DNA from: Gammaproteobacteria bacterium
Lineage (GTDB): Bacteria; Pseudomonadota; Gammaproteobacteria; SZUA-229
Direction of reading: 5' to 3'
DNA length: 64,000 bases
NCBI GenBank assembly: GCA_030148865.1
Contig: JASBSR010000006.1
Coordinates: forward strand, 1-64,000
Translations under genes and position numbers: made by a program
The notes under the pieces: generated by a model
The model's database searches: none
Seen by the model: the letters and a program-made list of their open reading frames with translations, nothing else
Told to the model about the DNA's origin: nothing
Part shown: positions 22,364 through 26,872 of the stretch, in pieces
How positions within the stretch are numbered: the first letter of the stretch is position 1
Layout of the letters: every line of letters begins with the position of its first letter

Positions 22364-22923
22364 ATGGAACAATTATTTACTGTTGAACACCTGGTCAGTC
22401 TAAGCATGCTCATAATCGTGCTCGGCGGCGGCGTATTGATTATTTATACGGCCACCAAAGAGATTTTTCACATGATCAGCATTGACGAGCTTGAAGATGA
22501 AACGCAAGACAGTCAATCGTCGCCAAAATCATATTCTGGATCGTAGCAATGAATCTGGTGTTCTCATTCGACTCAATTCTCAGTGCGATGGCCTTGAGCA
22601 ATGTCTTTACGGTAATGGCAACCGCCATCGTGATTAGCGACATACTCATGATCTAGCTATCAGATCATGTCGCTGAATTTTTACAGAAGAATCGCATGTA
22701 TGAAGTGCTTGGCCTGTTCATCCTGTTCGTGGTTGGTATAATGCTGCTCCCGGAAGGTGGTCATCCCGCACACATGGAATTATTTGGTGAACAGATTACA
22801 CCAATGAGCACCACCACTTTCTATTTTGTCATTATCGTGCTAGTACTGACCGATCTGGTACAAACGCGTTACAGGAGAAAAATAATGGCACGCAAACAAT
22901 TACAATCGCAGACTGCTACATAA
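22364..22923 (+). pseudogene. TerC-family integral membrane protein, decayed (5' truncated, one frameshift, one in-frame TAG)
   Basis: Frame 1: LGGGVLIIYTATKEIFHMI; frame 2: KIIFWIVAMNLVFSFDSILSAMALSNVFTVMATAIVISDILMI-TAG(22654)-LSDHVAEFLQKNRMYEVLGLFILFVVGIMLLPEGG..ITPMSTTTFYFVIIVLVLTDLVQTRYRRK. Confidence 0.82.
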
Positions 22924-22936
22924 CCACACACCAAGC

Positions 22937-23824
22937 ATGGGCTGCAAAATACTGACCATCTTAGCGCTATTTATAGTGCTCGCCCTGCTCTGGCTAAGCA
23001 GCGATCGACTTGCGCTATTCGTTGCGAACTCACTCGCTCGACTCGACAACTATCATGTCAGAAAAAATATCGGTTATGGTAAGCATCAGAACCACAGGCT
23101 GGATGTTTACACGCCAGATCAATCAGTGAATGCATCACAAAGCAAGCCCGTCGTCATTTTCTTTTACGGTGGCTGCTGGGGCGCATGCCAAAGTTATGAC
23201 AAAGGCGATTATGCCTTTGTCGCGCAAGCCTTCTCGTCACTCGGGTATATCACTGTCGTACCGGACTACCGTCACTACCCGGAATTTCTGTTTGAAGATA
23301 TCATGGCTGACACTATCAGCGTGGTGCACTGGGTAGAAAACAATATTGCCGACTTCGATGGCGATGCCAGACGAATTGTACTCGCGGGACACTCATCCGG
23401 TGCGCATCTCGCTGCCATGCTAACACTGGATGAATCCCGGCTTCCGGTCTCCAGCCGTATCAATATTGCAGGCTTTGTCGGACTTGCTGGCCCCTATGAC
23501 TTTTACCCATTCACCGAAAATTATCAGCCCACCCTGTTCGGCCCGGAAGAAAATTACCCACGTTCGCAACCTGTCAACTTCATGACCGGTAAAAAACCCG
23601 CCATGCTACTGCTCTATGGTAATAACGATACCCGGGTCAAGCCTGTCAATATCGAAAGCCTGACCATAGCAGCGATGGATGCGGGCAGCGAGGTTGAATC
23701 ACACCGTTATGATGGTATTGATCACGCTGGTATTCTGGCAGCGCTCTCGCGACCGCTACGCGATAAACGGCCCGTCATGTCTGACATTGCGCGTTTTACT
23801 GATATGGTGTTGAACTGCAACTAG
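22937..23824 (+). CDS. Alpha/beta hydrolase (esterase/lipase-like)
   Basis: VVIFFYGGCWGACQSYDKGDY oxyanion region; VLAGHSSGAHLAAML nucleophile elbow; N-terminal TM/signal. Confidence 0.85.
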   Translation: MGCKILTILALFIVLALLWLSSDRLALFVANSLARLDNYHVRKNIGYGKHQNHRLDVYTPDQSVNASQSKPVVIFFYGGCWGACQSYDKGDYAFVAQAFSSLGYITVVPDYRHYPEFLFEDIMADTISVVHWVENNIADFDGDARRIVLAGHSSGAHLAAMLTLDESRLPVSSRINIAGFVGLAGPYDFYPFTENYQPTLFGPEENYPRSQPVNFMTGKKPAMLLLYGNNDTRVKPVNIESLTIAAMDAGSEVESHRYDGIDHAGILAALSRPLRDKRPVMSDIARFTDMVLNCN

Positions 23825-23860
23825 ACTCATAGTTACATTTTTGTATAAGCATCCTGAAGT

Positions 23861-24445
23861 ATGGCTAAAATATTTTCGTTCTGGCGCCGCAGCAAATTAA
23901 ACCCGTCAGGTTTCGAAACCCTGGTGGCACCGCATATCGAACCGCTGTATCGTCTCGCCTACCGATTTTGTGGGACACAGCACGATGCCGAAGATCTGGT
24001 GCAGGAGCTTTTAACCCGACTCTACCCAAAACATCAGGAACTCGCTGGCATCGAACAGCCCGGCCCGTGGCTAAAAAAATCGCTGTATCACCTGTTCATT
24101 GACGACAACCGACGCGACATACGCTCGCCGGTATCGCTAATGGAGGATATAGGCCTTGATCTTGATTCCACCGCCTCGGACCATCGCGATCCGCAGCACA
24201 ATCTGGAACGTGATATGAGCTACCAACATCTTGAAAAAGCCCTGCTCACATTGAGCCTCGAACAACGTAGCCTGATTGCGATGCACGATATGGAAGGCTA
24301 CAGCCTGCCGGAGCTCGCAGCCATGCTGGAGACGCCGCTGGGCACCCTGAAATCCCGCCTGCATCGCGCTCGCGCCCGCCTGCGCGCGCAGCTGAGCCAG
24401 GGATCAGTAGACGATCTTGAGCAAACCGGCAGCAATGAAAAGTAG
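23861..24445 (+). CDS. ECF-family RNA polymerase sigma factor
   Basis: LYRLAYRFCGTQHDAEDLVQELLTRLYP (sigma2); MHDMEGYSLPELAAMLETPLGTLKSRLHRARARLR (sigma4). Confidence 0.93.
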   Translation: MAKIFSFWRRSKLNPSGFETLVAPHIEPLYRLAYRFCGTQHDAEDLVQELLTRLYPKHQELAGIEQPGPWLKKSLYHLFIDDNRRDIRSPVSLMEDIGLDLDSTASDHRDPQHNLERDMSYQHLEKALLTLSLEQRSLIAMHDMEGYSLPELAAMLETPLGTLKSRLHRARARLRAQLSQGSVDDLEQTGSNEK

Positions 24446-24535
24446 ACCCGCGCCCACCAGCTGGCAGAATCATTCGCAATAGCTGGAACCTTTTTGCCAC
24501 CCCGTTCGTGTAATGGGATAACAGAGGATAAAACC

Positions 24536-25222
24536 ATGCAATGCTCTGAGTTTCTAACACAAATCGACGATTGTATCGACAGCCAGCCAGGTGAAGATGT
24601 GCGCACCGCAGTGAGCGCACATCTTGAACACTGTGCTAACTGTCGAAATCGCCTGGATGAAGCTCAAAACTTGCGTGAGATGCTCAGAGACATGCCTGTC
24701 CCTGCGCCCTCAGCGGGCTTTGCTGCACGCGCCCTACGACAGGCTGCCGTGGCACATACAGTAAATCGTGTTCCCCGGCGCAGGATGATGTTCGCATCCG
24801 GCGCTGCGGCCACACTGCTCGCTGGTGTTGTGCTCTGGTTTATAACGGGTATTCATGACCCGCAGGTCGAATCCAATGTGGTACCACAACAGCAACTGGC
24901 GGAAGTAAAACTCCAGTTGCAGGAAACACGCCACATCAGACTCGGCTTTAACGCGCCGACCGATATGCAACGAGTTCTTGTGTCACTGGAATTTCCAGAA
25001 CACGTCGAACTGGAAAAATATCCCGGTCGGAAACAGATTGCCTGGTATACCAATCTGTACAAGGGTGACAATGTATTAAAATTACCACTGTCAGGCCTGA
25101 AAACCAGCAAGGGCAAGTTTATCGCCCGCGTTAGTTCAGGACAAACCAGCAGTGAAATACATATCAACCTTGATGTAGAAGCGCCGGGTGTAACCACTAT
25201 CAATGGTCCGTTAGCGGCCTAG
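24536..25222 (+). CDS. Anti-sigma factor with N-terminal zinc-finger (zf-HC2-like) and one TM helix
   Basis: HLEHCANCRNRLDEAQNLREML; TM GAAATLLAGVVLWFITGI; directly downstream of the sigma gene. Confidence 0.82.
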   Translation: MQCSEFLTQIDDCIDSQPGEDVRTAVSAHLEHCANCRNRLDEAQNLREMLRDMPVPAPSAGFAARALRQAAVAHTVNRVPRRRMMFASGAAATLLAGVVLWFITGIHDPQVESNVVPQQQLAEVKLQLQETRHIRLGFNAPTDMQRVLVSLEFPEHVELEKYPGRKQIAWYTNLYKGDNVLKLPLSGLKTSKGKFIARVSSGQTSSEIHINLDVEAPGVTTINGPLAA

Positions 25223-25250
25223 ATGTCAAATACTTTCAGGAGTAGCGACT

Positions 25251-25742
25251 ATGAAAAAATTTAATCTCACCACGCTTGCCATCGCCTGCATGCTGGCTCT
25301 GGGTAGCGCCCAGGCGCAATCCGTAGAAACAGCTGATTCAGCAGAAGTCAAAATCACGCTGCTCAACGACTCATCGGCAAACACATCTGACAGTGTAGAC
25401 GTCCAGCACGAAATCCAGTTGCCTTCTGTAGCAGAAATCGAAGACCCTGCTGATGCACCACCTGAAGTTGCTGAAGCACCTGAGGTCGCCGAAGCTGCTG
25501 AACCGCCAGAGGCTGCTGAAACTCCAGAGATTGAAGACACGAATGACGCCACTGAATCTGTCGATACGCCAGATGTGGAAGACGCGAATGAAGCCGTAGA
25601 AGAACATGAAGAAATCGAAGCGCCAGAAGTTGACGAGGCCAACGAAGCCGCAGAGGCTGCTGCCGAAGCGGCAACCGATGCTCGTGAAGAAGTTGAAACT
25701 CCAGAAGCACCGGAAGTTCCTGAAGCGCCTGAGCTTAACTGA
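25251..25742 (+). CDS. Secreted, highly acidic low-complexity protein (E/A/P-rich)
   Basis: Signal peptide MKKFNLTTLAIACMLALGSAQAQ, then EAPEVAEAAEPPEAAETPEIED..-type repeats; nearly no basic residues. Confidence 0.75.
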   Translation: MKKFNLTTLAIACMLALGSAQAQSVETADSAEVKITLLNDSSANTSDSVDVQHEIQLPSVAEIEDPADAPPEVAEAPEVAEAAEPPEAAETPEIEDTNDATESVDTPDVEDANEAVEEHEEIEAPEVDEANEAAEAAAEAATDAREEVETPEAPEVPEAPELN

Positions 25743-25795
25743 AGTTCAAAGTAAAGAAACCTGCTGTACAGATTAAGGCTGTTACTCGATAGCCC

Positions 25796-25829
25796 TCCCA
25801 TCCTCAATTTAATTGAGGATGGGATTTTT
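25796..25829 (+). terminator. Rho-independent terminator
   Basis: TCCCATCCTCAATTTAATTGAGGATGGGATTTTT perfect stem plus T run. Confidence 0.9.
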
Positions 25830-25918
25830 GTATACCGGATAAATACTATCGCGTAATACAGCAACATTCACCAGCATGTATTTGTACAGCAAATGCAACA
25901 AAGGACTAAATAAAAATT

Positions 25919-26872
25919 ATGAGGACACACTCTCGTAACAATAACCACTATCGAATAAAGTGCATCGCAATAACAGGTTTGCTTTGGTGTAGCACCACGG
26001 CAGCGGACACCAGCCCTGACTGGACAGGGCTGGTATCCGCATCTATGGGTCGCGACAGCAACGTTACCTTAAGTGACAACAGCAATATTATCAGCAGCAA
26101 TATCAGCGATAGCTTTATCAATACACTGGGCGCTACAGGTCGCTACCTGACGGGCAACCGCAGCGATGGCGTCCGAATCGACGGTGTGTTCTATTTACGA
26201 AAATACCAGACACAAAATAGTTTTGACTTTAGCCTGGTCAATGCCGGTGTCGCCTATCATAAAAAACTCGGCGACTGGCATGGCCGTTTTGGCACCAAAT
26301 ACAGTCACATCGAATTTGGTGGCGCCCCCTACCAGGACATATACGACCTGACCACTGAAGGCCGTCGCAAGTTCAGTAAAGCTGCCGAACTGCGCATTCG
26401 CTATCGCTACAGCGATATTAATGTGCTAAGCCCTCAATTCAATAACACAGATGGTAATCGTCATCGACTGAATATTGAAGGCCGCTTCAAGTCCGGAGAC
26501 AAGCGCTATCGCCTTGCCTGGCGGGCTGAAACAAACAATCTTAACGATAGCCAAACAGCCACAACTTACACCAGTAGTTCAACTGTTCGCAATAGAGTCC
26601 GCGCAAGTGCAAAAATTCCTTTAACTGATAAATGGAGCAGCAAGCTGGACCTACGCTGGCGCAACAGCCGCTACAAAGATGATAACGTAACCTCAACTAC
26701 CCGAGTTCGTCGTAATGATGACCGCATTACAGCAAAAGCGGTGTTGAATTATCATTTAGGCAAAAAAACAGGGCTATACGCTGACTACACTTACACCAAT
26801 AATAATTCGAATATCAGCACCTATCAGTATCATCGCAATGTGATTAGCACAGGTCTGAACTATCTATTTTAA
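25919..26872 (+). CDS. Predicted outer-membrane beta-barrel protein
   Basis: Signal sequence, alternating amphipathic strands, C-terminal ...RNVISTGLNYLF aromatic terminus. Confidence 0.75.
   Translation: MRTHSRNNNHYRIKCIAITGLLWCSTTAADTSPDWTGLVSASMGRDSNVTLSDNSNIISSNISDSFINTLGATGRYLTGNRSDGVRIDGVFYLRKYQTQNSFDFSLVNAGVAYHKKLGDWHGRFGTKYSHIEFGGAPYQDIYDLTTEGRRKFSKAAELRIRYRYSDINVLSPQFNNTDGNRHRLNIEGRFKSGDKRYRLAWRAETNNLNDSQTATTYTSSSTVRNRVRASAKIPLTDKWSSKLDLRWRNSRYKDDNVTSTTRVRRNDDRITAKAVLNYHLGKKTGLYADYTYTNNNSNISTYQYHRNVISTGLNYLF

Follow-up and report, generated by a model that had tools for sequence, protein, structure and literature searches.

The window analysed here is a stretch of 64,000 nucleotides from a gammaproteobacterium (contig C24, JASBSR010000006.1, of a draft genome of 2.68 Mb). 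At positions 22937-26872 it carries five open reading frames in one direction (+), and all of the codirectional genes listed for this region in an earlier note on the same DNA were found. Four of them encode an extracytoplasmic function (ECF) sigma factor, a zinc-finger anti-sigma factor, a small secreted protein and an outer-membrane beta-barrel; as judged from comparative sequence, these four form a module that is widely conserved in Gammaproteobacteria. The locus comprises the following features.

22937..23824, + strand: membrane-anchored BD-FAE alpha/beta hydrolase (PF20434, 92.4 bits), a neighbour outside the conserved unit
23861..24445, + strand: ECF sigma factor with regions 2 and 4_2 (PF08281, 47 bits; PF04542, 36.5 bits)
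24485..24511, + strand: predicted sigma-autoregulated promoter, GGAACCTTTTTGCCACCCCGTTCGTGT, ending 24 nt 5' of the anti-sigma start
24536..25222, + strand: class I zinc-finger anti-sigma factor with one transmembrane segment and a periplasmic beta-rich domain (HLEHCANC; profile matches)
25251..25742, + strand: secreted acidic protein with signal peptide, core VKITLLND..HEIQLP and a 105-residue tail rich in E, D, A and P
25796..25824, + strand: intrinsic terminator-like hairpin, a 13-bp stem followed by TTTTTG, between the secreted-protein gene and the barrel gene
25919..26872, + strand: outer-membrane beta-barrel, BBP2_2-like, without N-terminal tetratricopeptide repeats (TPR) (PF10082, 27.8 bits)

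The conservation of the unit was counted in 60 non-redundant anti-sigma loci and, for the barrel, in the 56 whose sequence continues for more than 2 kb downstream. The sigma gene adjoins the anti-sigma gene in 58 of the 60 loci, and in 52 of the 56 a barrel gene follows in the same orientation; in locus L078 the barrel gene is adjacent but convergent. Carriers recognized by the anti-sigma profile amount to 39 of 369 genomes of the class Gammaproteobacteria and 33 of 272 genera, and a search with the sigma protein gave 24 carriers among 96 relatives. The genes flanking the four-gene unit vary from genome to genome. Two loci of Sulfuriflexus type, L003 and L004, hold sigma, anti-sigma, secreted protein and barrel in unchanged order between a gene resembling the major facilitator superfamily upstream and metW/metX-like genes downstream (names assigned by eye), at the positions where the window has the hydrolase and a DUF2007 gene. 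In none of the other loci inspected, L003 and L004 among them, does the hydrolase, which the earlier note had counted into the system, stand ahead of sigma. It was rejected as a fifth member because the gene at this position varies among relatives, and the conserved unit therefore consists of four genes, not five. Another part of that proposal is supported: the acidic protein and the barrel are conserved beside the sigma pair, the group is a real and widespread module, and a promoter predicted to depend on sigma stands ahead of both genes, which would place them in the sigma regulon. No established name or function for the module was found in the literature searched.

The sigma factor, of 194 residues, is short and comprises regions 2 and 4 only, which places it among the ECF sigma factors. 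PF04542 and PF08281 both score above cutoff, and TIGR02937 gives 71.7 bits (cutoff 42.9). The anti-sigma factor most likely starts at the ATG at 24536 rather than at the TTG at 24494, since the latter falls inside the predicted promoter. Its HLEHCANC motif lies at residue 29 and is accompanied by a single transmembrane segment. The zf-HC2 score of 21.4 bits is just under the cutoff of 22.2; a profile of its relatives matches RsiW (5wuq, E=2e-9), DdvA, RsrA and ChrR in the PDB, and the cysteine, histidine and two further cysteines (C, H, C, C) are invariant among 25 relatives. By its HxxxCxxC motif and domain similarity the protein belongs to the class I zinc-binding anti-sigma factors (ASDI/ZAS). 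Adjacency in nearly all loci and family membership predict that it binds and inhibits the neighbouring sigma factor. In its HxxxCxxC anti-sigma domain, transmembrane anchor and ECF partner the pair resembles SigW-RsiW and other class I (ASDI) systems, from which it differs by another periplasmic domain and by the fixed secreted-protein and TPR-barrel genes downstream. This periplasmic domain has no clear Pfam match, and DUF3379 is matched by 4 of the 25 anti-sigma factors. The domain also occurs outside anti-sigma factors: at L090 (6027-6722) and L091 it is found in a membrane protein lacking both a zinc finger and an adjoining sigma, near LemA-like genes. One genome carries the sigma/anti-sigma pair twice, and its second copy has two promoter sites (L142, G336:C1:2131500-2138500).

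In the 27 loci first examined, a motif made up of GGAACC-TTTT and CGTGT, the latter placed 22 nt from the first G, lies just 5' of the anti-sigma gene, although a few of its copies are weak. In the full locus set, 50 sites stand before the anti-sigma gene, and about half of the loci have another copy before sigma (31 in all). Elsewhere on the same strand, 11 matches occur in 635,262 positions, and the reversed motif gives 4. Because the motif used for scoring, which weights GGAAC and CGT, was itself set up by eye on some of these loci, independent support comes from a strict genome search of 45 carrier genomes, which returned 47 hits, mostly at the cluster, against 1 for the control. In 39 of 50 loci the promoter shares sequence with the 3' end of the sigma gene, lying fully inside the reading frame in 28 and partly in 11. 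When embedded it is usually read as (M/V/R)EPFxxxxRV, and two other frames yield DGTF, EGTV or GNLF. GAA and CGT are invariant in all 50 sites, which is partly an effect of selecting sites by score. The stronger argument that the DNA and not the peptide is conserved is the presence of the motif in three reading frames. A sigma-dependent promoter before the anti-sigma gene, and with it autoregulation, is accordingly a well-supported prediction. A search of Rfam gave no match.

In Corynebacterium glutamicum, the anti-sigma gene rshA is known to have a sigma-dependent promoter (PMC3489674). In SigH-RshA, as here, such a promoter drives the anti-sigma gene separately from sigma; the SigH-RshA regulon is a large one for disulphide and heat stress and includes neither secreted protein nor barrel, whereas the promoter of the module would additionally serve both. 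A family-wide promoter embedded in the sigma coding sequence was not reported in the literature found, which was covered in part.

In the window genome the strict 13-base motif has a single match, at 24485-24511, and a search allowing one mismatch added one site, against one for the control. The only strict site being that of the locus itself, the predicted regulon is the module's own operon. This bears on a reading as a stress circuit of the outer membrane or periplasm, similar to RpoE, in which the barrel would be a stress porin and the secreted protein a chaperone or ion buffer. Such a circuit would account for a membrane-bound anti-sigma factor with a periplasmic domain and for a regulon formed by barrel and secreted protein; the regulon of one site, lacking chaperones, proteases and barrel-assembly (BAM) genes, is however unlike those of general envelope stress, and we consider the reading quite unlikely.

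The secreted protein has 163 residues, a signal peptide and an isoelectric point of about 4.05. Its mature part consists to 63.6% of E, D, A and P and to 33.6% of E and D, with only two K or R residues, and no other of the window's 175 open frames that reach 100 codons exceeds 24% D+E. Relatives share a signal peptide and a short core, [DE]-[VI]-T-[IM]-x-[VMI] ... I-x-L-P, followed by a variable low-complexity tail. Profiles built from half of the 26 seeds found the other half, and additional loci as well, at the expected position only, although some of the held-out hits are weak (E >0.01) and near-relatives may fall in both halves; core hits flagged as lying elsewhere are same-strand stop-to-stop frames that start further upstream. 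Both halves of the core, VKITLLND and HEIQLP, are present by motif in the window protein, which on position, signal peptide and motif is a probable member of the family. The tails are acidic (D+E more than twice K+R) in 41 of 51 loci and neutral or basic in 4. In L078 (5680-5988) the tail is strongly basic, with 36% K+R and 4% D+E, beside the convergent TPR-barrel. The description of the protein as polyacidic in the earlier note therefore holds for the window but was rejected as the defining trait; what is conserved is the short N-terminal core.

The window barrel, of 317 residues, matches BBP2_2 (PF10082) at 27.8 bits against a cutoff of 23.7, over the C-terminal third of the profile only. 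Its relatives have a signal peptide, about three TPRs and a barrel. TPRs were found in 48 of 52 barrels, the exceptions being those of the window, L003, L004 and L059; among the full-length barrels of the TPR type, all 16 have TPRs and 14 match BBP2_2. The structure model of the window barrel shows 13 strands at low confidence; the models were poor, and Foldseek matches to generic barrels were for this reason not used as evidence.

Sigma, anti-sigma and an outer-membrane barrel in one locus also recall FecIRA, and a system of this type could sense a metal or surface ligand, with the acidic protein as a ligand of calcium or another metal. A polyacidic protein could indeed bind divalent cations. 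The module barrel is, however, a small BBP2_2-like protein and not a TonB-dependent receptor; a Pfam scan of the barrel gave no match to a TonB plug, nothing else points to metal signalling of the FecIR type, and the neutral or basic tails of some relatives are incompatible with obligate cation binding. Metal sensing of this kind appears very improbable.

Additional copies of the promoter motif were seen near other genes, and those before the EAL-domain gene, the lipoproteins, the small Ser/Pro-rich protein and the pga operon described below, like that at the second sigma pair, are strict matches. In L051/L131 (G016) and L052 (G007) the motif recurs about 950-980 nt 5' of sigma; the G016 copy stands before an EAL-domain gene that is the immediate upstream neighbour of sigma. 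The same motif is followed in L129 (G117) and L130 (G035) by lipoproteins that contain DUF4382 and/or DUF5666, and a lipoprotein that looks similar to these adjoins sigma in L078. In L137 (5117-8298, Sulfuriflexus) a second site precedes a small Ser/Pro-rich protein with a signal like that of twin-arginine translocation, and after it come a PqqD-type/HprK-like protein, a lipoprotein with DUF3833 and a hydrolase that shares 38% identity with that of the window. A strict motif is located 5' of a complete pgaABCD operon (identities by NCBIfam) in L136:338-6715 (G364), and a near-consensus site lies 5' of pgaA in L139 of the sister species G264, within one genus. These sites are a hint of surface polymer or matrix biology in some genera.

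They also provide the basis for the main rival explanation, an exopolysaccharide or biofilm-matrix module. The TPR-barrel would then be a polysaccharide porin similar to PgaA or EpsL, and the polyanionic protein a matrix component or counter-ion for a (poly)cationic polymer. The motif before the pga genes, before the EAL-domain gene and in the Sulfuriflexus locus with the PqqD-type/HprK-like protein would fit, as would the layout of TPR plus barrel, shared with the poly-N-acetylglucosamine (PNAG) porin PgaA, and the weak similarity of the barrel to TIGR03016/EpsL and BBP2_2. Nevertheless, PgaA is a protein of about 800 residues encoded alongside PgaBCD; the cluster has no polysaccharide synthase, and neither the module barrels nor the window genome match TIGR03939 (PgaA). 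Matches to XrtB EpsL and TIGR03016 were below cutoff (26.7 against 90.85 and 24.8 against 275 bits). Co-occurrence with PgaA was non-significant (4 of 39 carriers against 14 of 330, p=0.11), and the motif was absent near pgaA in G117 and G352. PNAG as a general output was rejected on the co-occurrence and on the lack of PgaA in the window genome; the matrix explanation as a whole is unlikely, with an appreciable share of the probability.

Strict terminators follow the secreted-protein gene in 9 of 47 loci and were not found in the control stretch. The 78 nt after this gene fold with z < -2 relative to dinucleotide shuffles in 19 of 35 loci against 5 for the control, which is a coding and not an intergenic stretch. 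A terminator at this position would raise the mRNA of the secreted protein above that of the barrel, the ratio we would expect for cargo and exporter. The hairpin 5' of the window barrel gene could also be taken to mean that only sigma and anti-sigma are functionally paired and that the other genes are chance neighbours. Against this, many families keep the gene order while the flanks vary, and they have the promoter in common; chance neighbourhood is counted as refuted, its remaining probability being negligible.

The best explanation of the locus is an autoregulated module for the cell surface or secretion, with the TPR-barrel taking the secreted protein as its cargo or partner; we give it an even chance. 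Its regulatory part is well supported by comparative sequence, and its biochemical role is what we infer. By analogy with characterized families, the ECF sigma factor would be held at the inner membrane by an RsiW-like class I zinc-binding anti-sigma factor. A periplasmic signal, read by the beta-rich domain, would release it, probably via regulated proteolysis, and free sigma would use the GGAACC-TTTT/CGTGT promoter directly 5' of the anti-sigma gene. As a result of the promoter position, activation would co-induce the inhibitor of sigma (a negative feedback), the secreted protein and, past a probably leaky terminator that would keep cargo above barrel level, the barrel. The TPR-barrel may export the secreted protein through the outer membrane or act as its partner at the surface, at a little less than an even chance, with the conserved core as recognition element and the charged tail as passenger. 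Secreted protein left unexported or unbound in the periplasm could be the signal of the anti-sigma factor. A complete system of this kind, an undescribed ECF-controlled route of secretion or display in which the TPR-barrel exports the protein by its core (VT[IM]xV...IxLP) and the anti-sigma domain senses it in an export-coupled feedback, is a doubtful but conceivable extension.

Type XI secretion is the best functional analogue of the module. In Slam systems (DUF560, NilB-NilC; PMC8406197) a periplasmic TPR domain and outer-membrane barrel are also encoded beside a gene for a small secreted partner. Deletion of the whole N-terminal domain of NilB relieves the colonization defects caused by small TPR deletions (PMC8406197), which parallels the TPR-less barrel of the window. 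The N-terminal periplasmic TPR domain of Slam is missing from the window barrel, though present in most module barrels, and Slam cargo has a C-terminal 8-stranded barrel, whereas the module protein has a short core and a low-complexity tail. The module may work like type XI secretion but is not assigned to it, because its defining features, the SlipAM domain and the barrel of the cargo, are lacking here.

Several observations weigh against the secretion reading. A Pfam scan found no SlipAM (PF04575) match in the window barrel, and a similarity below cutoff is seen in only 2 of 16 relatives, with a best E of 7e-4; L049 scores 19.7 bits against a cutoff of 22. The family profile does not recover the window protein with VKITLLND/HEIQLP. 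Together with the lost TPR domain of the barrel, this means that the partnership may have changed in the clade of the window. The neutral or basic tails in four loci do not suit a strictly electrostatic role, and the structure models, built from three input sequences per protein, reached a predicted local distance difference test score (pLDDT) of only 46-49.

The window, L003, L004 and L059 form one clade with full support in a tree of sigma and anti-sigma. The idea that the TPR and the secreted core were lost together was not retained, because by eye the two-strand motif persists in this TPR-less clade with a longer linker. Identity between window and L003 is 62% for sigma, 53% for anti-sigma and 51% for the barrel (61% for sigma in L004, and 51-53% for the barrels of both loci), whereas the window sigma is at most 47% identical to those of its own family. 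HtpG, on the other hand, is 66-80% identical within the family and 63-64% identical to Sulfuriflexus. That the cluster, unlike HtpG, is nearer to Sulfuriflexus, a member of another family, suggests lateral transfer of 23861-26872, with ancient paralogy as the alternative. Upstream of the hydrolase, a TerC-family membrane gene (22364-22923) looks broken, with two weak TerC matches in different frames and an in-frame TAG; it could be a pseudogene or an assembly error.

The conserved C-terminal MEPFxxxxRV 'motif' of the sigma factors appears to be promoter DNA translated into peptide, which could mislead annotation at the protein level as well as the trimming or expression of ECF genes. If the proposed reading is true, a widespread gammaproteobacterial ECF module would come to have a defined promoter, a regulon that is predicted and partners that can be tested, and would include two uncharacterised families, the core-containing secreted protein and the periplasmic domain of the anti-sigma factor.

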